From Spirochaetaceae bacterium (GTDB lineage: Bacteria > Spirochaetota > Spirochaetia > SZUA-6 > Bin103), in NCBI GenBank assembly GCA_028821475.1, contig JAPPGB010000171.1:76727-140726 (forward strand): a stretch of DNA of 64,000 nt, given 5' to 3'. The position numbers and the translations under genes are program-made. Numbering within the stretch: the first letter of the stretch is position 1; the number at the start of each line of letters is the position of its first letter. A model generated the notes under the pieces. The model searched no databases and had not been told where the DNA came from. It saw only the letters and a list, made by a program, of their open reading frames with translations. Below are positions 1,532-37,963 of the stretch, piece by piece.

Positions 1532-4408
1532 TCAGGTGCGTACCCAGCGCAACAGGTTGGCCAGGAGCCGGTCTGCGACCGGATCGCTGCCGAGGTGCGG
1601 CGGTATCCGGTACTGGCAAACCACGTAGCGGCCGCGACCGTGCGCGAACTCCGTAAGTTCGGCACCGTCGAACGCCGCGGTCACGCCCTGGAAGGATTGC
1701 TTGTGCTTCTGCCCGCGGTACCATCCACTGGTGATGTTGCCACCGATCCAGCGTGATTTTGGAGAGACGATGCACCACTCGGGCAGCACGTTCTGGTACT
1801 CCTGCTCCATGAGTCCGCCCGACGGGAGGCCGGCGAAGCAGGCATGGTCCGTGACTACGTGAGCGCACGGGACCCACGATCCGATCGCCGGAAACAGGAT
1901 CATGTCGAACGGAAGCGCGCGTCCGGCCGGCAGGCGGCTCATCTCCTGACCGAGGTAGTCCGCCGGTTCAAGCCATGATTCGGGCGGCGGGCCGAGCAGC
2001 ACCGCACAGCCGCCGCGTGCCACCCAGTCGGCGAGTTGCTCGAACCGCCCCACCGGCTCCCCCTCCACCGCAGACAAATCGACCACGACCGGCACGCCGA
2101 TGGCGGTTTCCGGGGTAAATCCCTCCGGCACCTCGCCGCCGGTGCGCAGGTGACCGGCGAGCGGACCGCTGTCCACGAACAGTGCCGGCGGACCCTCCGG
2201 CAGGCGCTCGCCGCCTGATTCCAGCAGGTAGACGGTGGTCTCGTTCGACACGGTGTCACCGTTCCCGTCGGCGAACGCCGTCCGGATCACGCACCGCCCC
2301 GGTGCGCCGGCCATCGCCAGCCGCCACTCCAGCAAATCGCCGACGCCGCCCGCCAGGGTACAGGACGACTCCCGCTCGCCCAACACCGCACCGTTGCAGT
2401 CCGTCACCGTCACGCGCAGCGTCCCCGTTGCCGCGGCGGTGTCGTTCACGCCGGTTATGCGAATTCCGAGGTCCTCGCCCACCGGCACGGCATGCCGGTC
2501 CGGACGGATCGCCAAGTAGCGCGGCGCGAACACCTCCCGGAGCGCGTGGTAAGCCTGCTTCGGCTCCCGGAACAGGTCGATCACGCCGGCGCAGACCACC
2601 CAGTCGCCGTCGCTCAAGGCGTGGATGCCGATGCCCGCCACCTGCGGGTTGATGCGCGCCGCCTCGGTCATCAGCTTCTGCGCCAGGTAGTGCACGCGCT
2701 GCGTCGCCGCCACCAGGTCGGCCACGCGCGGGAACAGCGCAACGGTGCCGGTCTCCTGCAACACGTTGCGGTAGGAGGTGAGCATCCGCTCGTGGATGCG
2801 ATAGTCGGGACACAGCGGGTTGCCCTCGCGTGCGAAGCGTTCCATGTTCGCGTCCAGGTCGGGCAGGCTGCCGTAGCCGAGCTCGGAGATGTTGGTCAGC
2901 AGTCCCGGGCTGACGTGACTCGCCGTGTAGCGGCCCAGTTTCAGGCCCTCGGCGGCAAGCTGCTCCTGCGTCTTGCCGAGTGCGAGCAACTCGTCGTACC
3001 GCGCCCGCGCCAACGGTGCGCCGGGATACATGTGCACGTCGTTGATCTCGACCGGCTCGCGGCTGTGCGGCAGGTACACGCGGCACGGTCCGCTGAAGCC
3101 GCCGGCCTCGTCGATGATCATCCGCGTCGCGTCCAGCTCACGAGCGCGCAGGGAAACGCGGTGGCGCAGGCGCGCGAGACCGTAACGCCGTATCTCGTTG
3201 AACATCTCCCAGATCACGATGCTCGGGTGGTGGCGGTCGCGGCGCACCATCTCGCTCACCTCGGACCGCAGCCGGGCCGCGGTGTGCGGCGTGAGCCGCG
3301 GCCAGTGGTTCATGCACTCCACCGGCAGCGCTCCCACCATCAGCACGCCCAGCTCGTCGGCGCGGTCGTACACAACCGTAGGCTGCGGCTTGCGCCACGG
3401 GCGGATCATGTTGATGTGTGCGCCCTTGACCAGTTCAAACTCCCGCTCCAACAGGTCGCGGTCGCGCGGATAGGCCAGCGAGTGCGGGTACATGCCCTCG
3501 TTGAATACCGTCTTCAACACCAGCGGACGGTCGTTCAGGTAGAAGCGCCCGTCACGGGCGGTGAACTCCCGGAAGCCGAACCTGCGCTCTGCCAGGTCGG
3601 ACCCCCGCCCGTCGGCCAGCACCTCCACCTGCAGGCGGTACAGGTTGGGCTGCTCCAGGTCCCAGAGCGCCGGTGCCGGTACGCGCAGGCGCGCCCGCTG
3701 GGTGCCGCGTCCCGGCGGCGTAGCCAACGTGTGCACGCTGCTTGCGGTACTGACCGGCGTCGCCCACGGCTGGATGTCGAACCGCATTTCCACCGCCGCC
3801 GTCGTGGCCGCGGTATTCTCCCACTCCACCGCCACTTCCACCGCGCCCGTGTGGGGATCGGGCACCAGTGCGAGGTCGGCAACCCGGAGCGGACCGGTGG
3901 CGGTCAGCCGGACCGGTTGCCAGATGCCGCCGGCGATCGCGGCGCGCCAGTGAGGCATCTCGTCGCGGCCCAAGCCATCGATGCGCACGTCCCGCGTGAT
4001 CAACGGAGTGATTACTCGCACGGCCAGGAAGTTGTCCGCGCCCGGACGCACCAAGTCGCCCACGTCCAGGGCGAAGCCGGTGTATCCGCCGTCGTGCGCA
4101 CCGACCGGCTCGCCGTTCAACCACACCTCGGCGCGATAGTTGACCGCGTCGAACTCGATCAGCACCGGACAGCCCGCCCACTCCGGCGGCACCGTGAACC
4201 ACCTGCCGTACCAGGCCACACCCTGATAGTCAAGCCGGAACTCCTCAAGGCACGCCGGCACCTCCACACGCTCGCGCTCGGGCCAGGCATCAAACTGATC
4301 CGCCAGCTCCCAGTGCAGCTCGCGGCCGACGTTGGCGTCGTCGAAGATCACCATCCAGGTGCCGTCCAGGCTCATGCTCTGCCGTTGCTCTACCTTGAGT
4401 CCGTTCAT
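1532..4408 (-). CDS. Glycoside hydrolase family 2 protein (beta-galactosidase/beta-glucuronidase-like)
   Basis: Predicted retaining exo-glycosidase of 958 residues. The domain order is GH2-like: an N-terminal jelly-roll sugar-binding domain (about 10-170), an Ig-like domain (175-280) and a TIM barrel (285-600). IVIWEMFNEI places the acid/base pair at Asn404-Glu405, and TNISELGYG offers Glu509 as nucleophile. The extra C-terminal part (about 700-958) contains a glutamine-amidotransferase-like fold ending in GRYVVCQYRIPPHLG, as in some large beta-galactosidases. No signal peptide is seen, so it is probably cytoplasmic and acts on imported oligosaccharides. An AGGAG lies about 13 bases before the ATG. 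The upstream neighbour on the same strand is the dienelactone hydrolase, 121 bp away. Substrate cannot be told from sequence. Confidence 0.87.
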   Translation of the reverse strand: MNGLKVEQRQSMSLDGTWMVIFDDANVGRELHWELADQFDAWPERERVEVPACLEEFRLDYQGVAWYGRWFTVPPEWAGCPVLIEFDAVNYRAEVWLNGEPVGAHDGGYTGFALDVGDLVRPGADNFLAVRVITPLITRDVRIDGLGRDEMPHWRAAIAGGIWQPVRLTATGPLRVADLALVPDPHTGAVEVAVEWENTAATTAAVEMRFDIQPWATPVSTASSVHTLATPPGRGTQRARLRVPAPALWDLEQPNLYRLQVEVLADGRGSDLAERRFGFREFTARDGRFYLNDRPLVLKTVFNEGMYPHSLAYPRDRDLLEREFELVKGAHINMIRPWRKPQPTVVYDRADELGVLMVGALPVECMNHWPRLTPHTAARLRSEVSEMVRRDRHHPSIVIWEMFNEIRRYGLARLRHRVSLRARELDATRMIIDEAGGFSGPCRVYLPHSREPVEINDVHMYPGAPLARARYDELLALGKTQEQLAAEGLKLGRYTASHVSPGLLTNISELGYGSLPDLDANMERFAREGNPLCPDYRIHERMLTSYRNVLQETGTVALFPRVADLVAATQRVHYLAQKLMTEAARINPQVAGIGIHALSDGDWVVCAGVIDLFREPKQAYHALREVFAPRYLAIRPDRHAVPVGEDLGIRITGVNDTAAATGTLRVTVTDCNGAVLGERESSCTLAGGVGDLLEWRLAMAGAPGRCVIRTAFADGNGDTVSNETTVYLLESGGERLPEGPPALFVDSGPLAGHLRTGGEVPEGFTPETAIGVPVVVDLSAVEGEPVGRFEQLADWVARGGCAVLLGPPPESWLEPADYLGQEMSRLPAGRALPFDMILFPAIGSWVPCAHVVTDHACFAGLPSGGLMEQEYQNVLPEWCIVSPKSRWIGGNITSGWYRGQKHKQSFQGVTAAFDGAELTEFAHGRGRYVVCQYRIPPHLGSDPVADRLLANLLRWVRT

Positions 4409-4529
4409 CGATACGTCCCTGCTCCTTTGTTCCGGTAGGGTGACCGCACACCACGCCCGGGTACTACCGCGTCCGGGTGCTGCGCCGGACCTTCCCTCTG
4501 CGCGCGCCGGAAGCCGCGGAGATGCCGAA

Positions 4530-5411
4530 CTACGCCAAGTGTGCCTTGAAGAACGCGACAGTGCGCTCCCAGGCGAGGTGGGCGGCGGCCTCGTCGTAGC
4601 GCGGCGTCGAGTTGTTGTGGAAACCGTGCCGGGTGCCCGGATAGGAGTGCATCTGGTATGTCTTGCCGTGTTCCTTGAGGGCGGCCTCGTAGTCGGGCCG
4701 TGCCCGATTCACCCAATCGTCGTTCTCGGCGTAGTGGATCAGCAGCGGCGCCTGGATGTTGCCAACCTCGGCAGTCGGTGCCGGCGGACCATAGAACGGT
4801 GCGCCCGCGTCCAGTTCGGCGCCGAGCCGGACCGCCAGCAGATTCACGATGCCACCACCCCAGCAGAACCCGACCGCACCCAGCTTGCCGGTGCTCAACT
4901 CGTGGTTCTTCAGAAAGTGAGCGCTGTTCACCATGTCCTGGCGCAGCTTGTCCTGGTCCAGGGAACGCTGCATGGCACGCCCGTCGTCGTCGTTGCCGGG
5001 ATAGCCGCCGATCGGTGACAGGCCGTCTGGAGCAAGGGCCAGGAATCCCGCCACCGCGGCGCGGCGTGCGACATCCTCGATGTAGGGGTTGAGGCCGCGG
5101 TTCTCGTGGACAACCAGGACCGCCGGAAAGGAGCCCTCGCCGGTGGGCTGCACCAGGTAGCCGCGCATCGCGCCCGAGTTGCCTCCCGGCGACGGATATT
5201 CCACGTACCGCGCCTTGATGCGATCGTCGGTGAACGAGACGGTCTGCGCTTCGGCGTAGCGCGGCAGCAACGCCTGCGCCATGGCCAGTGCCGACACGCC
5301 GCCAACCGTAATCGCCGCCGAGCGCGACAGGAACTGCCGGCGGCTGATGCGGTCATGGGTGTAGTCGTCGAACAGGTCGTAGACGCGGGGATCGATCTTG
5401 TCTCGATTCAT
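4530..5411 (-). CDS. Tat-exported dienelactone hydrolase family protein
   Basis: Alpha/beta hydrolase of 293 residues. ISRRQFLSRSAAITVGGVSA (22-41) is a twin-arginine signal and AEA the likely cleavage site, so the protein is exported folded. The catalytic triad is visible: Cys183 in GFCWGG, Asp231/232 in AENDDWV and His262 in GTRHGFH, the arrangement typical of dienelactone hydrolases. Start at 5411 was chosen over upstream in-frame codons because GGAGGA lies 4-5 bases before it. A good promoter lies at 5453-5481. Family members hydrolyse lactones or esters from aromatic degradation, but exported versions are poorly characterised and the substrate is unknown. Confidence 0.85.
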   Translation of the reverse strand: MNRDKIDPRVYDLFDDYTHDRISRRQFLSRSAAITVGGVSALAMAQALLPRYAEAQTVSFTDDRIKARYVEYPSPGGNSGAMRGYLVQPTGEGSFPAVLVVHENRGLNPYIEDVARRAAVAGFLALAPDGLSPIGGYPGNDDDGRAMQRSLDQDKLRQDMVNSAHFLKNHELSTGKLGAVGFCWGGGIVNLLAVRLGAELDAGAPFYGPPAPTAEVGNIQAPLLIHYAENDDWVNRARPDYEAALKEHGKTYQMHSYPGTRHGFHNNSTPRYDEAAAHLAWERTVAFFKAHLA

Positions 5412-26755: not shown

Positions 26756-28303
26756 ATGGCGGCGAAGCTCGACGTAATCACTCGTTGCCGGGGCTGGCAG
26801 CCGGTCGCGCTCCGGGCGCTTGTCGCAATGGCATGCATCGCGCTGGCCGGCTGCGGCGGCGGTCCGGGGAGTAGTCATCCGGATCTGACAGTGGCATCTC
26901 CGGAGGTGAGCGACGACCGCCCGGCCGCCGCGGCCCGCTTCACGTTCTCGGCCACGGTGCACAACGGCGGCCGCGGGACCGCGGCGGCGACCACGTTGCG
27001 CGTCTACCGTTCCAGGGATGCGACGGTCACGCGCTCCGACAAGGAGGTGGGCACCGCCGCGGTGACGGAACTGCCCGCCTCGGAGCGTGTCATCGTGCCA
27101 GTGGATCTGACCGCTCCGCCGAGTTCGGGCACGTACTACTACGGCGCCTGCGTCGATGCCCAGGACGGCGAATCCGACACCGCGAACAACTGTTCGGAAG
27201 CGGTCCCGGTCGTGGTGCCGGCAGCCCCGTTCCCGGACCTGGTGCTGGAGCCTCCCGAGGTGAGCGACGCCAGTCCGGCCACGGGGGACCGGTTTACGCT
27301 CTCGGTGAGGGTGCGCAACGCCGGCGGCACGACGGTGGTGGCGGTGGCGGTACGCTTCCATCGTTCGGCGGATCAGGCGATCACGCCTTCCGACCCGGTA
27401 GCAGGCACCGACACCATCGAGGATCTCGCGGCCGCGGGGACCCGCGTGGCATCGGTCGATCTGACCGCGCCGTCGCCTGCCGGGACCTACTACTACGGAG
27501 CTTGTGTGAATGCGGCGGACGGTCAATCCGACACGGCGAACAACTGTTCGGCGCCGGTACGTGTCACGGTGCGGGAGCCGCAGACCACGAGGCCGGATCT
27601 GGTGGTGGCCCATGAGGTGCGCACACTCAACGCGGTAGCGGGGAAGTATCTGCGGGTCTCGGCAGAGGTGTACAATGCCGGGGAGGCCACGGCGGCCGCG
27701 ACGCGGGCGGTCTTCTACCGTTCGACCGATTCGACGATCACGCGGTCCGACAAATTCATGGTCGCCGCAAGCGTGCCGGAGCTGGCGCCCTCGCGCCGCG
27801 TGCACGTGGCGGGGTCCACGTTGGCGCCCAAAACGCCCGGAACGTACTACTACGGTGCCTGCGTGGACGCGGTGGCGGGGGAGTCCGACACGACGAACAA
27901 CTGCCGGGCGACGCTGCAGGCCACGGTGCGGCTGGGGCCACCCGATCTGATGGTTATCGCACCCTCGCCCGCAAATCCCGCCAGTCCGGCCGCCGGCGGG
28001 CGGTTCTCTCTGCGGGTGGCGGTGCACAAGATCGGGGGGGAGCACGGAGCGGTTTCGCTCCGTTATTTTCGTTCGGGTGATGCCCAATTCACCTCGCCCG
28101 GCACGCAAGTCGGCTTCAAAGAGGTACCTGACATGGCTCCGTTCAGCGTCTTGAGCACATCGATGCACCTGGATGCGCCATCGAACAAGGGCACGTACTA
28201 CTACCGCGTGTGCGCGGACGCGGTGGCCGGGGAGACCGATACGACCAACAACTGCTCGTCGCCGGTGACAGTCGTGGTCTCGGACGCCAACCGGGCCGGG
28301 TAA
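26756..28303 (+). CDS. Lipoprotein with four CARDB repeats
   Basis: Predicted surface or periplasmic lipoprotein of 515 residues. After a basic N-terminus, VAMACIALAGC supplies a lipobox with Cys33. Four beta-sandwich repeats of about 115 residues (roughly 40-155, 160-275, 280-395, 398-510) each begin PDL and end in GTYYYGACVDAxxGESDTxNNC. This is the CARDB (cell-adhesion-related, APHP-like) signature, in which the Asp/Asn-rich end may bind calcium and the two Cys per repeat may form a disulphide. GGGAGGAG precedes the ATG. A longer paralogue follows directly downstream. Role probably adhesion or matrix binding; ligand unknown. Confidence 0.75.
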   Translation: MAAKLDVITRCRGWQPVALRALVAMACIALAGCGGGPGSSHPDLTVASPEVSDDRPAAAARFTFSATVHNGGRGTAAATTLRVYRSRDATVTRSDKEVGTAAVTELPASERVIVPVDLTAPPSSGTYYYGACVDAQDGESDTANNCSEAVPVVVPAAPFPDLVLEPPEVSDASPATGDRFTLSVRVRNAGGTTVVAVAVRFHRSADQAITPSDPVAGTDTIEDLAAAGTRVASVDLTAPSPAGTYYYGACVNAADGQSDTANNCSAPVRVTVREPQTTRPDLVVAHEVRTLNAVAGKYLRVSAEVYNAGEATAAATRAVFYRSTDSTITRSDKFMVAASVPELAPSRRVHVAGSTLAPKTPGTYYYGACVDAVAGESDTTNNCRATLQATVRLGPPDLMVIAPSPANPASPAAGGRFSLRVAVHKIGGEHGAVSLRYFRSGDAQFTSPGTQVGFKEVPDMAPFSVLSTSMHLDAPSNKGTYYYRVCADAVAGETDTTNNCSSPVTVVVSDANRAG

Positions 28304-28568
28304 CGAATCCAGCAGGCGTCGGGCCGCGCAGCGGCCGAAATAACGAACTCCTGATTTCCAGGTCAACGCGAATCAAGGTCCGAGCAAACTGTCGATGCAG
28401 CGCCCAGGCCCGTTCCACTACGGTGTTCCAGGCGAGAAGTCATGAGCACCAATGGATACCAACGCTTGCTTAACAACATGAATAGGATGTTGAAAAATAC
28501 CTGGAGCTATGAACCGACTACGTTTTCGTCCGACACCCCTGGTCAAGCGCCATGGGAGGAGACCGGGC

Positions 28569-30491
28569 ATGCCGGCGGGTCTCCACCAGGTCGCTCGTTG
28601 CCGGCGCTGGCAGCCGGAAGCGCGCCGCGTGCTTGTCGCGATGGCATGCATGGCGCTGGCGAGTTGCGGCCGCGGTCCGGGGGCCAGTCATCCGGACCTG
28701 ACAGTGGCATCTCCGGCGGTGAGCAACGACCGCCCGGCGGCCGGGGCGAGCTTCACGTTCACGGCCACGGTACACAACGCCGGCCGCGGGAACGCGGCGG
28801 CGACCACGTTGCGGGTCTACCGTTCCAAGGATGCGACGGTCACGACCTCCGACAAGGGGGTGGGCGCCGCCGCGGTTACGGAACTACCGGCCTCGGAGAG
28901 CGTCGACGTGACGGTAGAGCTGACCGCGCCGTCGAGTTCCGGCACGTACTACTACGGCGCCTGCGTCGATGCCCAGGACGGCGAATCCGACACCGCGAAC
29001 AACTGTTCTGAAGCGGTCCCGGTCATCGTGCAGGAGCCGGATGCGCCGGCAGCGCCGCTCCCGGACCTGGTGCTGGAACCTCCCGAGGTGAGCGACGCCG
29101 CCCCGGCCACCGGCGGCGAGTTTACGCTGTCGGTGAGGGTGCGCAACGCCGGCAGCGCGCCGGCGGCGGACACGGCGGTGCGCTTCCATCAGTCGACGGA
29201 CCAGGCGATCACGCCGTCCGACCCCGAAGTGGGCACCGACACCATCGCAACCCTCGCGGCCTCCGCCAGCCACGTCGCATCGGTGGACCTGACCGCGCCG
29301 TCGCTCCCCGGGACCTACTACTATGGAGCTTGCGTGAGTGCGGCGGACGATCAATCCGACACGGCGAACAACTGTTCGGCGTCCGTGCGGGTCACGGTGC
29401 CCCGGCCCCCACCCCCGGCCCCGCCGCAGATCGCGACGAGGAGGTCTCCGGGACCGGATCTTGAGGTGGAAGAGGATGAGTCCCATCTCGGGGGATCCAG
29501 TCTGATGGTGGGGTATGTGCGCAATTCCGGAGACAGGCGTTCGCCGTCGACGACGGTGCGCTTCTATCGGTCTACGGACTCGACGATCACGAGGTCCGGC
29601 TGGCAGGTAGGCAAGCTGGATTTGAAGGCGATCGAGCCCTCGCAGCGCGAGTACGTCGGGACGAACACGGAGACTCCCTACAATCCGGGGACGTACTACT
29701 ACAGCATTTGTGTGGACGTGGTCGCCGGCGAGACCGACACGACGAACAACTGCCGGATCACGCGCCAGATCACGGTGCCGCCACGGCCGCCACCGGACGT
29801 GACGGTTTCCATCCACTCCAAGGGACCGTATCCCGCCAGTCCGGCCATCGGAGGGCGGTTCGACCTGCCTGTCATAGTGAAAAACTCCGGGCGGGGAGCG
29901 GGGTTGGTGCCGCTGCGTTCTTACCGTTCGGATAGTGCGGAGTTCACGTCGCCCGGCACGGAGGTGGGCGTCCGAACGATCGACATGCCTGACGGCATCG
30001 GCGTCTCGAGCACAGGCAAGCACCTGGAAACGCCGTCAAGCAAAGGTACCTACTATTATCGCGTGTGCGCGGACGCGGTGGCCGAGGAGTCCGATACGTC
30101 CAACAACTGCTCGTCGCCGGTGAAGGTCGAGGTCTCGCACAGCAAACCGAACCTGGTGATCGCGTCTCTCAAGCGTTGGGTCTCGCAAGGCAAGTACGTG
30201 GTGATGGTCGTGGAGGTGGAGAACGTCGGGAGCCGCATCGACGAGGACGAGCGACGGCTGCGTTTCTACCGTTCGACGGATGCGACGATCACGACTTCCG
30301 ACACGCTGATCGGCGCCGTCAAGGAGAGTTGGACCTGGCCCTCGTCCAGGTTTGATTTCTTCACTGGCTTTACGACTATAACGATCCCGGATACGCCCGG
30401 GACGCACTACTTTGGCGCATGCGTGGACGTGCTTGCAGGCGAGCTCAACACGACGGACAACTGCTCGTGGTCGCTGCGGTTCCATAGGTGA
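28569..30491 (+). CDS. Lipoprotein with five CARDB repeats, paralogue of upstream gene
   Basis: About 640 residues, with lipobox VAMACMALASC and five CARDB units ending in GTYYYGACV, GTYYYSICV, GTYYYRVCA or GTHYFGACV. Units 1 and 2 are nearly the same as in the upstream paralogue; later units and a proline-rich linker (PRPPPPAPPQ) differ, so it arose by tandem duplication and unit gain. Start at 28569 was chosen over ATG 28509 because the GGGAGGAG ribosome site and the first codons align with those of the paralogue. It converges on the MacB-like permease gene of the efflux operon. Confidence 0.75.
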   Translation: MPAGLHQVARCRRWQPEARRVLVAMACMALASCGRGPGASHPDLTVASPAVSNDRPAAGASFTFTATVHNAGRGNAAATTLRVYRSKDATVTTSDKGVGAAAVTELPASESVDVTVELTAPSSSGTYYYGACVDAQDGESDTANNCSEAVPVIVQEPDAPAAPLPDLVLEPPEVSDAAPATGGEFTLSVRVRNAGSAPAADTAVRFHQSTDQAITPSDPEVGTDTIATLAASASHVASVDLTAPSLPGTYYYGACVSAADDQSDTANNCSASVRVTVPRPPPPAPPQIATRRSPGPDLEVEEDESHLGGSSLMVGYVRNSGDRRSPSTTVRFYRSTDSTITRSGWQVGKLDLKAIEPSQREYVGTNTETPYNPGTYYYSICVDVVAGETDTTNNCRITRQITVPPRPPPDVTVSIHSKGPYPASPAIGGRFDLPVIVKNSGRGAGLVPLRSYRSDSAEFTSPGTEVGVRTIDMPDGIGVSSTGKHLETPSSKGTYYYRVCADAVAEESDTSNNCSSPVKVEVSHSKPNLVIASLKRWVSQGKYVVMVVEVENVGSRIDEDERRLRFYRSTDATITTSDTLIGAVKESWTWPSSRFDFFTGFTTITIPDTPGTHYFGACVDVLAGELNTTDNCSWSLRFHR

Positions 30492-30639: not shown

Positions 30640-31824
30640 CTACCCCGAGCGCAGCGCGGTGATCGGATCGAGCCGCGCCGCCTGGTGCGCCGGCTGCAGC
30701 CCGAAGAACACGCCGACACCACAGGCAACGACGAATCCCAACGTGGCGGCGGTCGGATCGACCATGAATTCCCACCCGGAGAACCGGCAGAAGATCCAGG
30801 TGCTGCCCACGCCGACCACGATGCCGAACACCCCGCCGACCAACGACAGGACGATGGACTCGGTCAGGAACTGGCTCTGGATGTCGAAACGGCGAGCGCC
30901 GAGGGCCCGCCTGATCCCGATTTCCGTGCGCCGCTCGGTCACCGAGACCAGCATCACGTTCATGACGCCGACTCCTCCGACGATCAGCGATATGCTGCCG
31001 ATCGCGGCCAGCAGCAGGGCGAACGTCTGCGCCTGGCGCTGCATCTGTTCGATCAGCCTCTGTGCGCTCTGCACGATGACCGACAGGCGCGGCGCCCTGC
31101 GCCGGAAGTACTCCCGCACCTCCGCGGTCGCCACGGTGTAGTGCGCGTCCGGCGTCATGCGGGCGCCGACCTGGTTCAATCCCTGCTGCGGGAACATGCG
31201 CTCGGCGGAGGAAAACGGAATCATGATCGCCCGGTCGGCGTCGAAGGGCTGCATGCCCCACCTCGGAGTGGCACGCAGCACGCCCACGATGGTGTAGATG
31301 CGATCGTTCAGCCTGATCGGTTCGCCGACCAGCGGTTCCGCGCCGGCGCGGCGCAGCGCCGAAGCCACTCGCGAGCCGACAACGCAATATTCGCGGCGCA
31401 CGTCCAGGTCCGAAATGGCCCGCCCGTCAGCGAGCGGCAGCCTGTTCATTTCAATGAACGACCCGGTCACCCCCAGGGTCGGGGCGTCCATGACCTTCTT
31501 CCCCGCGTACACGACCACCCCGAGGCCTTGGCTCCAGGGGGCTACCCCCGCGACCGACGGTGCTCCTTCCGGCAATCCGACCGCATCCGCCAGCGTCGTC
31601 CCCGATGCGCCCCCCGGTCCCAGGCCGTGCACCTGGATGGTGAGATAGTCGGTGCCGAGCTCCCGGAACTGTTCCAGGGCCTGCTGCTTGGCGATGGTTC
31701 CCACCGAGAGCATGGCGATGACCGAGCCGATGCCGATCACGATGCCGATCAGTGCCAGCAGGCTGCGCTGCTTCGCCGCGGAGAGGCTGACGACCGCTTC
31801 CTTGACGTTCGCCTTCAGCGCCAC
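30640..31824 (-). CDS. MacB-like ABC transporter permease (FtsX family)
   Basis: Inner-membrane subunit of 394 residues with MacB topology. One N-terminal helix (SLLALIGIVIGIGSVIAML) is followed by a periplasmic domain of about 210 residues. Three C-terminal helices include FALLLAAIGSISLIVGGVGV and the conserved MNVMLVSVTERRTEIGIRRA. MacB-type proteins do not pass substrate across the inner membrane; they use ATP hydrolysis to push periplasmic substrate into a TolC-type channel through an adaptor. All partners are in the same operon. It is the last gene, 62 bp after the ATPase, with the ATPase as a separate polypeptide as in MacB-related LolCDE-like systems. Confidence 0.87.
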   Translation of the reverse strand: MALKANVKEAVVSLSAAKQRSLLALIGIVIGIGSVIAMLSVGTIAKQQALEQFRELGTDYLTIQVHGLGPGGASGTTLADAVGLPEGAPSVAGVAPWSQGLGVVVYAGKKVMDAPTLGVTGSFIEMNRLPLADGRAISDLDVRREYCVVGSRVASALRRAGAEPLVGEPIRLNDRIYTIVGVLRATPRWGMQPFDADRAIMIPFSSAERMFPQQGLNQVGARMTPDAHYTVATAEVREYFRRRAPRLSVIVQSAQRLIEQMQRQAQTFALLLAAIGSISLIVGGVGVMNVMLVSVTERRTEIGIRRALGARRFDIQSQFLTESIVLSLVGGVFGIVVGVGSTWIFCRFSGWEFMVDPTAATLGFVVACGVGVFFGLQPAHQAARLDPITALRSG

Positions 31825-31886
31825 CGCGCCTCCCTCCTCCGTGCGACGACGGGCGGTTGGTCAGCGGCCAAGGGCGGCGGACCGGA

Positions 31887-32570
<684 letters not shown>

Positions 32571-32572
32571 CT

Positions 32573-34420
32573 TCAGTCGTCGCGGGCGTACGTCGTTTGG
32601 ATTGAAACCGTGCCCGTGGCCGTGTGGCCCTCGTCGTTGGTCATCGTCAGCGTCGCCGTGACCGTAAAGGGGCTGGGAGGCGGCTCGGCCAAGGCGTTCA
32701 GTTGCGCGGAGGTCTTGACGAACATCTGAAGCCTGCCATCGAGAATGCGGGAGAATCGAGCGACGTAGTAATCCAATGTAGAGAACTCCACCGCGGTGAA
32801 TCGCGCGTTCGTCCCCGGATTCTCGAACACCGATGGTGCGGAGGTGCCGGAAATGGCGCCGGGAGGTGCGTTGACTGGAGACAACCCTGGCATGACGGTC
32901 GGCGGACTGGTGCCCGCCAGCGGGGCGCCGGATGGGCGGGTGTACGTCGTTTCGAACGTGATCGTGCCTGAAGCCGTCTGGTCGTCGTCGTTGGTCATCG
33001 TCACCGTCGCCGTGACCGTAAAGGGGCTGGGAGGCGGCTCGGCCAAGGCGTTCAGTTCCGCGTCGGTCTTGGCATGCACATAGAGGTAGGTACCACGGTA
33101 TGCAACGCCCGTATTCTGGGTGCCGTAGTAGTCCATGGTCGAGAACACGGCGGCGGTTACTCTCGCGTTCGTCCCCCGGTTGGCGAAAATCTCGTCGATA
33201 CGCACGCGGCTCGTCACACCGGGAACTGCGCTGATGTTGGATGTCGCGATGAAGGTCGGCTGCGACTGCGCCGGCGCCGGCGGCGCGGCGGCGGTCCTGG
33301 GGTATGCCGTTCGGAGTGACCTCGTGGCCGTGGCCGTCTGGCCGTCGTCGTTGGTCATCGTCATCGTGGCCGTCACGGTAAAGGGGCTCGGTGGCGGCAC
33401 AGCCAGGGCGTTCAGTTGGGCGGCGGTCTTGGCCTTCACGAACAGGTAGCTCCCATCCGCATTCAGGCCGGTGAGCGCTGCGTCGTAGTAATCCATGGTG
33501 GAGAACGTCACGGCGGTGAATCTCGGGTTCGTCCCCACGTTGTCGAACGTCGAGTCGGGGGAGGTGCTGACCCGAACGCCGGCCGGTACGTTGAGTGGTT
33601 GGGTCGATGCGGCCACCGGCACCGCCGCGGGCGGGTCGCTTGACGGCGGAGGCGACGAGGCGGCCCTGGCGTACGTCGTTTGGAGTGACCTCGTGGCCGT
33701 GGCCGTCTGGCCGGCGTCGTTGGTCATGGTCATCGTGGCCGTCACGGTAAAGGGGCTCGGAGGCGGCACAGCCAAGGCGTTCAGTTGCGCGGCGGTCTTG
33801 GCCCTCACAAACAGGTAGCTCCCATCCGCGTTGAGTCCGGTAAGCGCTGCGTCGTAGTAATCCATGGTGGAGAACGTCACGGCGGTGAATCTCGGGTTCG
33901 TCCCCACGTTGTCGAACGTCGAGTCGGGGGAGGTGCTGACCCGAACGCCGGCCGGTACGTTGAGTGGTTGGGTCGATGCGGCCACCGGCACCGCCGCGGG
34001 CGGGTCGCTTGACGGCGGAGGCGACGAGGCGGCCCTGGCGTACGTCGTTCGGAGTGACCTCGTGGCCGTGGCCGTCTGGCCGTCGTCGTTGGTCATCGTC
34101 ATCGTGGCCGTCACGGTAAAGGGGCTCGGTGGCGGCACAGCCAGGGCGTTCAGTTGGGCGGCGGTCTTGGCCTTCACGAACAGGTAGCTCCCATCCGCAT
34201 TCAGGCCGGTGAGCGCTGCGTCGTAGTAATCCATGGTGGAGAACGTCACGGCGGTGAATCTCGGGTTCGTCCCCACGTTGTCGAACGTCGAGTCAGGGGA
34301 GGTGCTGACCCGAACGCCGGCCGGCACGTTGAGCGGTTGGGTCGATGCGGCCACCGGCACCGCGTCGGCAGGTGCGCCGCTCAGCAACCATACGGTCGCC
34401 GCGGCGGCCACAAGCGCCAT
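32573..34420 (-). CDS. Secreted tandem-repeat protein within the efflux operon
   Basis: Unrecognised protein of about 615 residues. From ATG 34420 it starts with a clean Sec signal (MALVAAAATVWLLSGAPADA). Five repeats of about 123 residues follow, each with FxNxGTNxRFTAVxFSTMDYY, an AQLNALAxPPPSPFTVTA core and MTNDDGQTATxTxxxxTTY. Repeats 1-3 are almost identical; 4 and 5 are diverged. No Cys occurs in the repeats. The pattern looks like an Ig-type or cadherin-type beta-sandwich, but no family was recognised. The frame is open upstream to 34627, and ATG 34537 is an alternative start. It lies between the adaptor gene (16-bp gap to the open frame) and the ATPase (2-bp gap), so it is probably a substrate, chaperone or surface partner of the exporter. 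Confidence 0.65.
   Translation of the reverse strand: MALVAAAATVWLLSGAPADAVPVAASTQPLNVPAGVRVSTSPDSTFDNVGTNPRFTAVTFSTMDYYDAALTGLNADGSYLFVKAKTAAQLNALAVPPPSPFTVTATMTMTNDDGQTATATRSLRTTYARAASSPPPSSDPPAAVPVAASTQPLNVPAGVRVSTSPDSTFDNVGTNPRFTAVTFSTMDYYDAALTGLNADGSYLFVRAKTAAQLNALAVPPPSPFTVTATMTMTNDAGQTATATRSLQTTYARAASSPPPSSDPPAAVPVAASTQPLNVPAGVRVSTSPDSTFDNVGTNPRFTAVTFSTMDYYDAALTGLNADGSYLFVKAKTAAQLNALAVPPPSPFTVTATMTMTNDDGQTATATRSLRTAYPRTAAAPPAPAQSQPTFIATSNISAVPGVTSRVRIDEIFANRGTNARVTAAVFSTMDYYGTQNTGVAYRGTYLYVHAKTDAELNALAEPPPSPFTVTATVTMTNDDDQTASGTITFETTYTRPSGAPLAGTSPPTVMPGLSPVNAPPGAISGTSAPSVFENPGTNARFTAVEFSTLDYYVARFSRILDGRLQMFVKTSAQLNALAEPPPSPFTVTATLTMTNDEGHTATGTVSIQTTYARDD
33298..34404. repeat. Three near-identical 369-bp direct repeats
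   Basis: Tandem units with a period of exactly 369 bp; for example, the string CATCGTGGCC recurs at 33362, 33731 and 34100. They encode repeats 3, 2 and 1 of the secreted protein. The outer units share variants (GGTGGCGGCACAGCCAGGGC) absent from the middle unit (GGAGGCGGCACAGCCAAGGC), so the two outer copies are closer to each other than to their neighbour. Such long identical repeats favour copy-number change by recombination. Confidence 0.9.
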
Positions 34421-34478
34421 GGAACGGCGCCGACCCGCACGGCTCAGGGAGCCTGCGCTGCACCGCAGCAGGTCTAAA

Positions 34479-34521
34479 GCGAACACCCGGTCGAAATAAG
34501 GGAACAAGGCGAACACCCGGT
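34479..34521. repeat. 13-bp direct repeats in the leader of the repeat-protein gene
   Basis: GCGAACACCCGGT occurs at 34479-34491 and again at 34509-34521, exactly 30 bp apart. Both lie between the putative promoter at 34544-34572 and ATG 34420. They could be regulator half-sites spaced by about three helical turns, or simply encode the repeated RVFAL if the upstream start is used. Confidence 0.4.
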
Positions 34522-34543
34522 ATAGAAAAGAGCCCATGTAGCA

Positions 34544-34572
34544 AACGTAATGGAGCGGGCTATATCCGTCAA
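34544..34572 (-). promoter_or_regulatory. Possible internal promoter for the repeat-protein gene
   Basis: On the minus strand, TTGACG (34572-34567), 17 bases, TACGTT (34549-34544), just after the adaptor gene. It would allow separate, perhaps stronger, expression of the repeat protein and exporter ATPase genes. Confidence 0.35.
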
Positions 34573-34643
34573 CTTCCAGGATAATCGACACTGATTCGAT
34601 GCCCATGCGGGTCTGACCACGCCGCACCGTCTCATGCCGTTCT

Positions 34644-36479
34644 TCAGGATGCGGCGACGATCACCTCGTCGCCGGCCTTGAGACCGCGAACGATCTCCAC
34701 CTCGTACGTCGTCGTCTCGCCAACCTCCACCGGCACTTCCCGAGGCACGCCGCCGGCCGGGCTCCGCACGAGGACGCGGTAGTTTCCCGCGCTGCCCTGA
34801 ACGGCAGCCACGGGCACAAGCAGGACGGCGGGCTCGTCCCGGACAACGACGGTGACACTGGCTGACATTCCCAGCCGCACACGTGCGAGATGCGCTTCAC
34901 TGACGCGTTCGATGACCGCGGTCACGTCGAACGTCGGCACGGCGCTCGGTCCCGCACTTCGGGACTGCGGGGAGATTCGCACGATCCTGCCTTCGAATAC
35001 CAGGTCGGGGAAAGCATCGCCGCTGATCCTGACCGACTGCCCCGGCTGTACTTTCACCACATCCACTTCGTCGACACCGCCGCTGACGGACAGGCCGCGC
35101 AGGTCACCGATGCTCAGCAGGTAGCCGCCTTCGCTCACCAACTGGCCCGCGGCCAGCGGGCGCCCATCGCCGTCCTCCCCTGACCGCTGTCGGCCGTCGC
35201 CGCCGGATTGCAGGACCACGCCGGACACCGGCGCCACGATCGTCGCGCTTTGCAGCGCTCTCTCCATCTCCCGCATGCCGGTGGCAGCGGTCTCCAGCCT
35301 GAGCCGGGCGATCTGCACCACGTCCGCGCCGCCCTTGGCGCGCGTCTCCTCCAGGTCGCGCAGTGCCGCCTCGTGTCTCAGGCGCTGGCCCTCGTATTGC
35401 CGCTCCGCGGCCGCGAACTCGGATGCCGGGATTATCCCCTGCTCCAGCAGCACCGCGGAGGCGGTGCGAGCGCCCGCGAGCGTCTCCAGCTCCATACCGG
35501 CCAGCGCCACGGCTTGCCGGGCTCGTGTGACTTCCGGGCCGTTCTCCCAATTCTCGATCTCCCGGAGCCTGTCCCGGGCCTCCAGGTATCGTGCCGAGGC
35601 CTCGAGGTATCGGCGATTGAAATCGGCGACGTCCAACTGGACCAGCGGCTGGCCCGCCACCACCAGGTCGCCGTACTCGAAGAACACACCCGCCACCTTG
35701 CCGGCGGACGGACTGCTTACCTGCCGTTCCTCGCGCGGCGCGAGTGTTCCGACGAACGAGAGGGTTCTGATCAGCCGGCGCGGCGCGACGGTCACGGTCG
35801 TCGCCTCCGCGGGCGCCGCGGACGCGCGCGAAGCTGCCGCCGGGAGCGCCGTTCCCATCTCGTTCCAGACGTACCACGCTGCGCCCGAGAAGAGCACGAC
35901 GACCAGCAGTACGGCGAGCACCCGTACCGCCTGCACCTTTTTCAGGGCCGAATCCAGCGCCGTGTTCTTTTCCTCGATCTCACGAAACGCGTCTCGGAGT
36001 GCGACGTTCTGCGTCCTGGTCGACTCCAGCAGCTCCTGCTCGGCCTGACGCAGCGCCTGCACTTCGGTGACATCGTCCAGGACTGCGACGATGCCGATTC
36101 TCTCCATCGCCCGGTCCTTGCGGCTGACGAGGTACGATGTCGTCACGTCGACGGACCGCTCCGCGTCTTCCCCGAGGCGCAGGCTGACCGTCGACCGCGA
36201 ACCGACCGCGTGGTCGTAGACCGCCGCCAGCACGGTGTCGTTGAATTCCTCCAGACCGTCGCGCTCCAGGAAGACCTCGCCGAACGGCTTGCCCCGGACC
36301 TTCTCCCCGGCCAACCCAAGCAACCGCAGGGCGGCCGGATTCAGGATCCCGACGCGGCCGTCGGCGGTGACGGTCATGACGCCCTCGGTCATGCTCTCCA
36401 GCACGTTGCGGTGCAGCAGGAAGTCGCGTTCGACCTCCGCGTCGCTCCGTATCGGAAGATTCGACGCGACGTCGGTCAC
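34644..36479 (-). CDS. PAS-domain/HlyD-type membrane fusion protein chimera (MacA-like adaptor)
   Basis: Unusual fusion of 611 residues. Residues about 20-140 form a cytoplasmic PAS domain (VLESMTEGVMTVTADGRVGI, LNPAALRLLGLAGEKVRGKP, then VAVLDDVTEVQALRQAEQEL). A coiled coil (140-185) and one transmembrane helix (VLAVLLVVVLFSGAAWYVW) follow. From about 230 comes a periplasmic adaptor: lipoyl half GTLAPREERQVSSPSAGKV, long hairpin coiled coil, second half SATIVAPVSGVVLQSGG, and beta-barrel and membrane-proximal domains. Adaptors normally link an ABC or RND pump to TolC and lack PAS. Start GTG 36479 overlaps the TolC-like stop as GTGA, so the two are coupled. The PAS may gate assembly or activity, or receive a redox or ligand signal. 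Confidence 0.8.
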   Translation of the reverse strand: MTDVASNLPIRSDAEVERDFLLHRNVLESMTEGVMTVTADGRVGILNPAALRLLGLAGEKVRGKPFGEVFLERDGLEEFNDTVLAAVYDHAVGSRSTVSLRLGEDAERSVDVTTSYLVSRKDRAMERIGIVAVLDDVTEVQALRQAEQELLESTRTQNVALRDAFREIEEKNTALDSALKKVQAVRVLAVLLVVVLFSGAAWYVWNEMGTALPAAASRASAAPAEATTVTVAPRRLIRTLSFVGTLAPREERQVSSPSAGKVAGVFFEYGDLVVAGQPLVQLDVADFNRRYLEASARYLEARDRLREIENWENGPEVTRARQAVALAGMELETLAGARTASAVLLEQGIIPASEFAAAERQYEGQRLRHEAALRDLEETRAKGGADVVQIARLRLETAATGMREMERALQSATIVAPVSGVVLQSGGDGRQRSGEDGDGRPLAAGQLVSEGGYLLSIGDLRGLSVSGGVDEVDVVKVQPGQSVRISGDAFPDLVFEGRIVRISPQSRSAGPSAVPTFDVTAVIERVSEAHLARVRLGMSASVTVVVRDEPAVLLVPVAAVQGSAGNYRVLVRSPAGGVPREVPVEVGETTTYEVEIVRGLKAGDEVIVAAS

Positions 36480-37963
36480 GCTTCCACCTCGCCGCGGGCT
36501 GCCAGGTCGATGTCGATCCGCCATGTGTCCAGCGTGGTCCCGAGCGTGAGGTCGAGCGCTGTCAAGGCGTTCAGATACGCAAGGATCGCGTCGAGTTCTC
36601 TAGTCTGGTTTCGCACCAGGTCGTCCTCGACCGCAACCACCCGAAAGTTGCTCGACAGGCCGGAATCCAACTTCAACCGTTCGATCTCCAACGCTCGTTC
36701 GGCAAGCCTCCTCGACTGCCGGGCCAACTCGATACGCCGGAACTGCACCTCTGCCTCGCGCACGGCGGTGCGCACCTCCAGTTCGATGCCCTGGCGCAGT
36801 TCCCGGAACTGCAACCGGGACTTCTGCAAGGCGATTTCGGCCTTCCGCCAGTTCCGCCGCTGGGCGTCACTGTCCGCGCCCAGCGGGATACGCAGACGGA
36901 GCCCGGTCCGGTAGTCGCCGTCGAACCGGCCGTACGCTTCTGCCAGCGAGCGGCCGTCGTGCCCGAAGCGCGCGGAGGCGGTAAGGTCCAGCTCCCACTT
37001 GCGCGCGTTGTCGGCGACCAGCAGACCGGTGTTCGCGTTTTCGATGGCCAGCGCGGCCTGGAGATAGTCGGGGCGGTTTTGCAGGGCCAGTTGCACGGCT
37101 CGATCGGCGTCGTGCTCCTTTCGCTCGACCCGCAGCTTTTCCGTGGGACGGATCCGGCTGCGGCTGTCGACATCCAGAATGGCAATCAGGGCAAGACGGG
37201 CGTCATCCAGCGCGCCGTGCGCCTCGGTCAGGCTCAACTCGCGCTCCGCGATGGTTGCTTCGGTCTGGACGATGTCCTGCTCGGCCATTCTGCCGCTCGC
37301 GATCAGGATCCGATTCACCGCCAGCAGGTCACGCGCCCGCTGGAGGGAGTGTTCCGCGATCTCCACCTCGCGCCGCGACCTGCTCACCTTCCGGTATGCG
37401 TAGATGGTGGCGGTGACGAGCCTCATGACCGTCGACCTGAAGACGAGGACGCCGGCATCTTCCGTGCGCCGGGCTCTTACCACGCCGGCGTTGCCGACCG
37501 CGACTCCCGCCCCTTTCAGAAACGGCTGCACGAAGTCCAGCTCGACGAACTGTGACGCGGTGTCCCGATCCGTAACCGTACTGTTCGCGCGGAGTCGGAA
37601 CGTCCCGCCGGTGGGGACCCGCAGCGTCACGCTCGGAGACACGTCGAGCGTGGAGGTGGTCAAGTTGCGGTCCGCGGAAACGGCGAACGCGGCAGCGAGG
37701 CGAAACTCGTCCTCGGCGTCCTCCAGGGACAGCCGCCCGGCGAGCCGGTCCAGGCGGGCGGCGGCGAGGTCGCGATTGTTGCGGAGGGCCAGCATGACGC
37801 ACTCGGCGAGCGTCAACGCAAGTTCGGGCGCAGTGCTCGACGCGGTTTCCGCCGCGGCCGGCCACGCCGTCAAGGCCGCCACTGCCAGGAGGGAACCCCA
37901 CCGCCGGGCACCGCAACGACCGGTGGCCCGCCGGCGCCGGCCACGGTTGTCATGGCGGAACAC
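36476..37963 (-). CDS. TolC-like outer-membrane efflux protein
   Basis: Trimeric outer-membrane channel subunit, about 495 residues. A signal segment (WGSLLAVAALTAWPAAA) is followed by two structural repeats rich in amphipathic helix, including LALTLAECVMLALRNNRDLA, VELDFVQPFLKGAGVAVGNA and, in the second half, AVQLALQNRPDYLQAALAIE with LRLRIPLGADSDAQRRNW. These are the paired OEP domains. Start is uncertain: GTG 37963 gives a basic n-region just before the signal, while ATG 38083 and a further upstream codon (38155) are in frame. It is first in the operon with the PAS-adaptor, repeat protein, ATPase and permease. A possible TTGACA lies at 38196-38191. Confidence 0.82.
   Translation of the reverse strand: MFRHDNRGRRRRATGRCGARRWGSLLAVAALTAWPAAAETASSTAPELALTLAECVMLALRNNRDLAAARLDRLAGRLSLEDAEDEFRLAAAFAVSADRNLTTSTLDVSPSVTLRVPTGGTFRLRANSTVTDRDTASQFVELDFVQPFLKGAGVAVGNAGVVRARRTEDAGVLVFRSTVMRLVTATIYAYRKVSRSRREVEIAEHSLQRARDLLAVNRILIASGRMAEQDIVQTEATIAERELSLTEAHGALDDARLALIAILDVDSRSRIRPTEKLRVERKEHDADRAVQLALQNRPDYLQAALAIENANTGLLVADNARKWELDLTASARFGHDGRSLAEAYGRFDGDYRTGLRLRIPLGADSDAQRRNWRKAEIALQKSRLQFRELRQGIELEVRTAVREAEVQFRRIELARQSRRLAERALEIERLKLDSGLSSNFRVVAVEDDLVRNQTRELDAILAYLNALTALDLTLGTTLDTWRIDIDLAARGEVEA

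Follow-up and report, generated by a model that had tools for sequence, protein, structure and literature searches.

The principle of sending Sec-delivered proteins through a tripartite pump is already known. MacAB-TolC exports the heat-stable enterotoxin STII, a disulfide-bonded peptide (PMC5985334), and Aat exports CexE/Aap (PMC7943197), both after delivery by Sec. Here, we compared these and related exporters with an operon that lies in a stretch of 64,000 nucleotides (the window) of contig JAPPGB010000171.1 from a Spirochaetaceae bacterium. Like MacAB-TolC, the operon encodes an adaptor with a MacA-like fold, a MacB periplasmic domain joined to an FtsX permease, and a TolC channel. Unlike MacB, which is one polypeptide, the ATPase and permease of the window are separate genes, and the family described below differs further by a predicted cytoplasmic PAS or GAF domain on the adaptor and by linked secreted families.

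The Aat system (AatPABCD) shares a TolC-like protein, a periplasmic adaptor, a LolD-like ATPase and a separate Lol/MacB-like permease with the window operon. Its one dedicated Sec-exported protein is encoded nearby (PMC7943197), and the window has a signal-peptide gene, for a candidate substrate, between adaptor and ATPase. The two differ in that the window adaptor is sensor-fused, that the predicted mature window repeat protein, judged by eye, seems to have no initial glycine, and that the cargo families look unrelated, without having been compared directly. No counterpart of the Lnt-like N-acyltransferase AatD was found, as there was no C-N hydrolase among the operon genes and neighbours scanned. 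DevBCA-HgdD and other MacB-like tripartite ABC exporters also combine an adaptor, a separate ATPase and permease and a TolC partner, whereas in the review text consulted DevB appears without a described sensor domain and the substrate is a glycolipid (PMC8277102). Type I secretion (HlyBD-TolC) likewise joins an ABC protein, a membrane-fusion protein and TolC but uses a different ABC class. Its cargo carries a C-terminal and no N-terminal signal, whereas the window repeat protein has a clear N-terminal signal peptide on inspection, in place of a C-terminal secretion signal.

That large review describes the cytoplasmic parts of ABC-linked adaptors as little known (PMC8277102), and sensor-fused periplasmic adaptors are undescribed in the open-access literature that we searched. 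Our preferred reading, to which we assign a probability of about 0.6, is that the operon encodes a MacAB/Aat-like system for two-step protein secretion that is tuned by a signal.

Operon layout and the PAS-fused adaptor

The initial annotation had read five minus-strand genes at this locus, and all five proved intact and collinear, with Pfam matches to OEP, HlyD_D23/HlyD_3 plus PAS, ABC_tran and MacB_PCD plus FtsX (Table 1). Its description of tiny gaps or overlaps holds for the GTG start of the adaptor, which overlaps the TolC stop as GTGA, and for the 2 nt between the repeat-gene stop and the ATPase gene, but not for the 106 nt between adaptor and repeat gene. The ATPase and permease genes are 62 nt apart. 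As the G+C content drops to 0.47 in the 106-nt gap, this AT-rich leader may hold a separate promoter for the repeat gene. A consensus promoter scan of the operon returned nothing that reached threshold or exceeded chance, and a terminator scan gave no signal above chance. Convergent with the operon lie two tandem genes for CARDB/DUF11-repeat lipoprotein-like products with a LAGC/LASC motif (26756-28303 and 28509-30491, plus strand).

Table 1. Features of the operon, in window positions.
Feature	Positions	Strand	Basis
TolC-family outer-membrane channel, operon gene 1, GTG start	36476..37963	-	Pfam OEP 1.5e-29; TIGR01844 below cut-off
PAS-coil-TM-MFP adaptor, 611 aa	34644..36479	-	Pfam PAS 3.9e-08, HlyD_D23 9.5e-13; RND_mfp above cut-off
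Predicted cytoplasmic PAS domain of adaptor	36045..36410	-	Pfam; phmmer to PAS chains
Predicted continuous signalling coil and transmembrane helix, residues 139-206	35865..36068	-	AF2 model; alignments
AT-rich leader, 106 nt, 5' of repeat gene	34538..34643	-	G+C 0.47-0.53 versus 0.67 around
Secreted five-repeat protein, candidate cargo	32573..34537	-	Repeat spacing and DNA identity; signal peptide by inspection; model of one repeat, pLDDT 90.8
LolD/MacB-type ABC ATPase	31887..32570	-	Pfam ABC_tran 4.1e-35; LolD, MacB and darobactin-exporter models below cut-offs
MacB-like permease, MacB_PCD and FtsX	30640..31824	-	PF12704 4.5e-35, PF02687 9.8e-20

By their NCBIfam matches, both the ATPase and the permease belong to the LolD/MacB superfamily, with scores far below the equivalog cut-offs (183 bits against 966 for the MacB equivalog model). 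Such a split LolD/MacB-type pair, together with the precedent of DevBCA-HgdD (PMC8277102), would suit an exporter of lipids or glycolipids in the manner of DevBCA or Lol-type systems, with the secreted repeat proteins forming the layer that is built. This is very improbable in our view, and no lipid-synthesis genes were recognised among the partly annotated neighbours of the loci examined.

In the adaptor, a PAS domain is followed by a coil, a single transmembrane helix and the periplasmic membrane-fusion (MFP) part, which is MacA-like. The adaptor scored 110.5 bits against the NCBIfam model RND_mfp (cut-off 94.9) and 61.8 bits against the MacA equivalog model (cut-off 342). In its AF2 model (mean pLDDT 77.7, from six sequences in the alignment), residues 139-206 form a single helix that runs from the PAS domain across the membrane to the periplasmic part, and the top Foldseek match of the latter was MacA of MacAB-TolC (8.1e-23). 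The PAS domain is predicted to face the cytoplasm, given the single N-terminal transmembrane helix that is typical of this protein class. The coil motif, AYxxIEExNxxLxxALKKVxxxR, is widely conserved among relatives and degenerate in some alignment rows.

The secreted repeat protein and the origin of the operon

The repeat protein is a multi-domain protein of 655 aa. The signal peptide ascribed to it is present by inspection but starts at an inner Met (MALVAAAATVWLLSGAPADA, about 34361-34420), and the predicted mature protein, read by eye, begins VPVAAS. Five repeats, as first counted, start near positions 34360, 33991, 33622, 33262 and 32905, with spacings of 369, 369, 360 and 360 nt. Repeats 1-3 are 93-97% identical to each other at the DNA level and about 60-70% identical to repeats 4-5. 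Single repeats matched no Pfam family at E-values up to 10, and NCBIfam gave sub-cut-off matches only for the protein. A single repeat was modelled as a cadherin/Ig-like beta sandwich (pLDDT 90.8), and among solved structures it comes closest to intimin D0, to the split domain found in the RTX adhesins FrhA and MpAFP, and to protocadherins, with Z of about 7-8. Such a modelled likeness is unspecific and would suit a surface protein of the adhesin type.

Early pattern scans for the repeat, including 395 genomes of the class, found no relatives; the patterns of these scans proved too narrow. No repeat relatives were found on plasmids, phages or viral contigs. The family does recur at locus L099, where TolC and a PAS-MFP adaptor are followed by two secreted proteins with two repeats each (HMM E < 1e-88). 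The repeat HMM includes the L099 repeats themselves; with the window protein as query, phmmer independently scored 127 and 139 bits. The first of the two genes lies about 0.7 kb past the adaptor, and the contig ends before any ATPase gene. These repeat-family genes led us to reject the idea that the repeat gene of the window was inserted on its own and has no relation to the pump.

In the adaptor tree, L099 (genome G795) is sister to the window, with support of 100/99 and 66% identity. In the adaptor tree and the permease tree alike, the window falls into a group with L050 and L051, which are from Pseudomonadota. The window permease is 71% identical to that of L050. The placement in these trees suggests that the operon was probably acquired horizontally.

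The proposed tie between repeat protein and exporter thus survives in part: the same repeat family follows the adaptor in the sister operon, but many relatives lack this repeat gene. Transporters without it were the finding that the initial annotation had named as speaking against the tie, and they exist; most of the alpha- and gammaproteobacterial relatives carry another secreted family instead.

Sensor-fused adaptors and secreted families in other phyla

The survey of the window's own class that the initial annotation had suggested would have been misleading, as neither the PAS-MFP fusion nor the repeat protein was found in any other genome among the 395 sampled. The scan for the fusion, which used an E-value of 1e-15 and scored few candidates in each genome, recovered the window's own genome only, and congeners of that genome are without the fused adaptor. 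The best relatives within the class (L010, L013, L014) are plain TolC-MFP-ATPase(-permease) operons without PAS or repeat. The kin lie in Pseudomonadota and in Desulfobacterota-type genomes, where the same adaptor type occurs in about 30 operons. The fusion that the initial annotation had proposed is therefore a recurrent one, found in other phyla.

These relatives came to light in a coil-motif scan, which recovered five named MAGs with a sensor-MFP plus tolC, ATPase and permease genes. One, from an alphaproteobacterium, matched at 66% over the N-terminal part and another, from a gammaproteobacterium, at 59%; the other three are from a deltaproteobacterium, a Desulfonatronum and a member of Syntrophobacteria. 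In that scan, alignment rows 2-5 were artificial and made the coil motif the pattern, so relatives that keep the coil were favoured; all matches were confirmed by tblastn with the real adaptor. A profile built from the five MAGs found the adaptor in 12 of 375 genomes from the phylum to which the Desulfonatronum genome (G398) belongs, in 2 of 19 genomes of the gamma order and in 6 of 14 of the alpha order. Two genomes contain five and six sensor-MFP paralogs. Plasmid MFPs matched the periplasmic part of the adaptor only.

The window operon has every element of the family as we define it (a cytoplasmic PAS or GAF domain, as predicted, the conserved coil, a transmembrane helix, an MFP part, and tolC, ATPase and permease genes in one operon). 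Most operons examined have the order TolC-adaptor-ATPase-permease. The sensor is PAS in nearly all, GAF in the same adaptor family at L054 (1227-3272), and missing from L073, L074 and L079; the coil is kept in the sensor-less L073 and L074 and lost in L079. At L101, L104 (10861-14803) and L105, the PAS-MFP and permease genes have neither an ATPase nor a TolC gene adjoining, and these units may borrow both from paralogous systems in the same genome. The adaptor frames of L063 (G681) and L087 (G798) each contain one in-frame TGA, from a pseudogene, a sequencing error or recoding.

Secreted families lie systematically beside these exporters, which supports the broader idea of a link between secreted protein and exporter. 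A member of one of three secreted families, detected with HMMs seeded from linked loci, was found beside the operon at 15 of the 16 loci with enough flank; L113 has secreted proteins of the Calx-beta type. None of the three families was found in 100 background contigs (1.05 Mb from G795, G395 and G796, away from the operons). We rely on this contrast and not on the p-value (Fisher's test, 6e-15 with an earlier 60-contig background set), because the loci are partly redundant, with L106, L107 and L109 near-identical. When HMMs were built with one locus left out, every omitted locus was recovered for both Cys domains, the second domain in L102 at a second site only. Chance neighbourhood of the secreted genes was rejected on the empty background.

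Cys-repeat families occur beside or inside the operon at L051, L100-L106 and L109-L112. Their proteins range from small to 460 aa. Each has a signal peptide, judged by eye, and a Cys-repeat domain (C..[WF]..S.AS..C) that is present once, twice or three times; a further Cys domain or one of the Calx-beta type is often found as well. At L102, L104 and L111, the gene for the secreted protein precedes tolC by 13-18 nt on the same strand; at L106, L109, L110 and, weakly, L051, it converges with the permease gene. At L100 (6263-10599, minus strand), eight Cys-repeat ORFs stand head to tail directly upstream of the tolC of the PAS-MFP operon. This run resembles a cassette array of variant, putative cargo.

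The membership of adaptor, ATPase and permease in the MacAB/LolD superfamily, the plain operons of the nearest class relatives and the apparent horizontal acquisition would all suit a standard MacAB-like pump that expels small molecules or peptides, with the secreted genes as passengers on shared genomic islands. We consider this unlikely, as passengers do not readily account for secreted families at nearly all loci against an empty background, for three secreted genes set so closely upstream of tolC in the same direction, or for a repeat family that follows the adaptor clade.

In about 15 operons of other genomes, no gene lies between adaptor and ATPase; this holds for the Desulfobacterota-type operons, among which a clear secreted partner was seen at about half of the loci only, with none at the others. 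Paralogous pairs of small secreted Cys proteins are found at L052, at L074 (upstream of tolC, with gaps of 67 and 100 nt) and at L078 (immediately upstream of the adaptor gene), and a gene for a secreted chagasin-type (I42) peptidase inhibitor lies just downstream of the permease at L068 (6298-6717) and L071 (10430-10840). The linkage is similar in kind to that of the alpha loci and weaker.

Regulatory and maturation genes are also found nearby. STAS and RsbW/SpoIIAB-type HATPase genes are directly upstream of tolC at L052, L068, L070 and L071, and tandem STAS proteins are encoded near L103, L104, L105, L111 and L114. STAS genes were present in 2 of 100 background contigs and are thus less specific than the secreted families; the search used for the other loci found none in the window. 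DsbA-family genes adjoin the operons of L103 and L076, which fits a disulfide-bonded periplasmic cargo. At L103, an HTTM/vitamin-K-dependent (gamma-)carboxylase-like gene (3217-4782) and a ScsC/DsbA-like gene (1841-2605) both adjoin the PAS-MFP operon, and cargo modification is a possible role for them.

The close linkage of secreted gene and operon, the adhesin-like fold of the repeat and a family that differs by pump clade, like a specificity factor, could also point to a secreted protein that works with the pump in the periplasm or at the surface, as a receptor, plug, assembly factor or protector, and is not cargo. We judge this quite unlikely, since the widely varying sizes and domain make-ups, the up to eight tandem Cys-repeat ORFs and the DsbA neighbours look more like cargo.

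A signal-tuned secretion model and its implications

Under the preferred reading of a two-step secretion system, we infer a substrate role for the secreted protein and a gating role in its transport for the PAS domain. The repeat protein would cross the inner membrane by Sec, as its signal peptide suggests, and fold in the periplasm into cadherin/Ig-like domains. The folded protein would then be captured between adaptor and permease, and ATP-powered strokes of the split MacB-type ABC proteins would drive it out via TolC to the cell surface or the exterior. As the PAS domain is joined by a continuous coil and transmembrane helix to the MacA-like part, a cytoplasmic signal could pass along this helix and alter the adaptor ring, and with it export activity or assembly.

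The main worry for export of the repeat protein is its size: with five folded domains and 655 aa it greatly exceeds STII and CexE, and its way out would lead through the narrow channel of TolC. Its gene's own leader may give partial independence from the operon, several alphaproteobacterial secreted genes are convergent with the operon instead of inside it, and three units (L101, the second of L104, and L105) have no adjoining ATPase or TolC gene; each of these points also argues against export.

The family would be modular, with sensor (PAS, GAF or none) and secreted partner varying around a constant exporter. For the wider proposal, we put the chances at even: that in a widespread family a PAS or GAF domain in a MacA-like adaptor gates two-step secretion, often with STAS/RsbW-type genes nearby, each clade having its own Sec-delivered family (cadherin-like repeats, Cys-repeat arrays or Calx-beta) and single genomes holding five to six systems.

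Tripartite pumps are thought to be controlled mainly at the level of transcription. If our reading is true, a sensor in the adaptor would put the trans-envelope machine, once assembled, under the direct influence of a cytoplasmic signal, and such control could readily be tested on the PAS-coil-TM-MacA protein. The linked families would likewise take MacAB/Aat-like export beyond a handful of small proteins of pathogens, to a broad environmental class whose members probably act at the cell surface or against neighbours or hosts.
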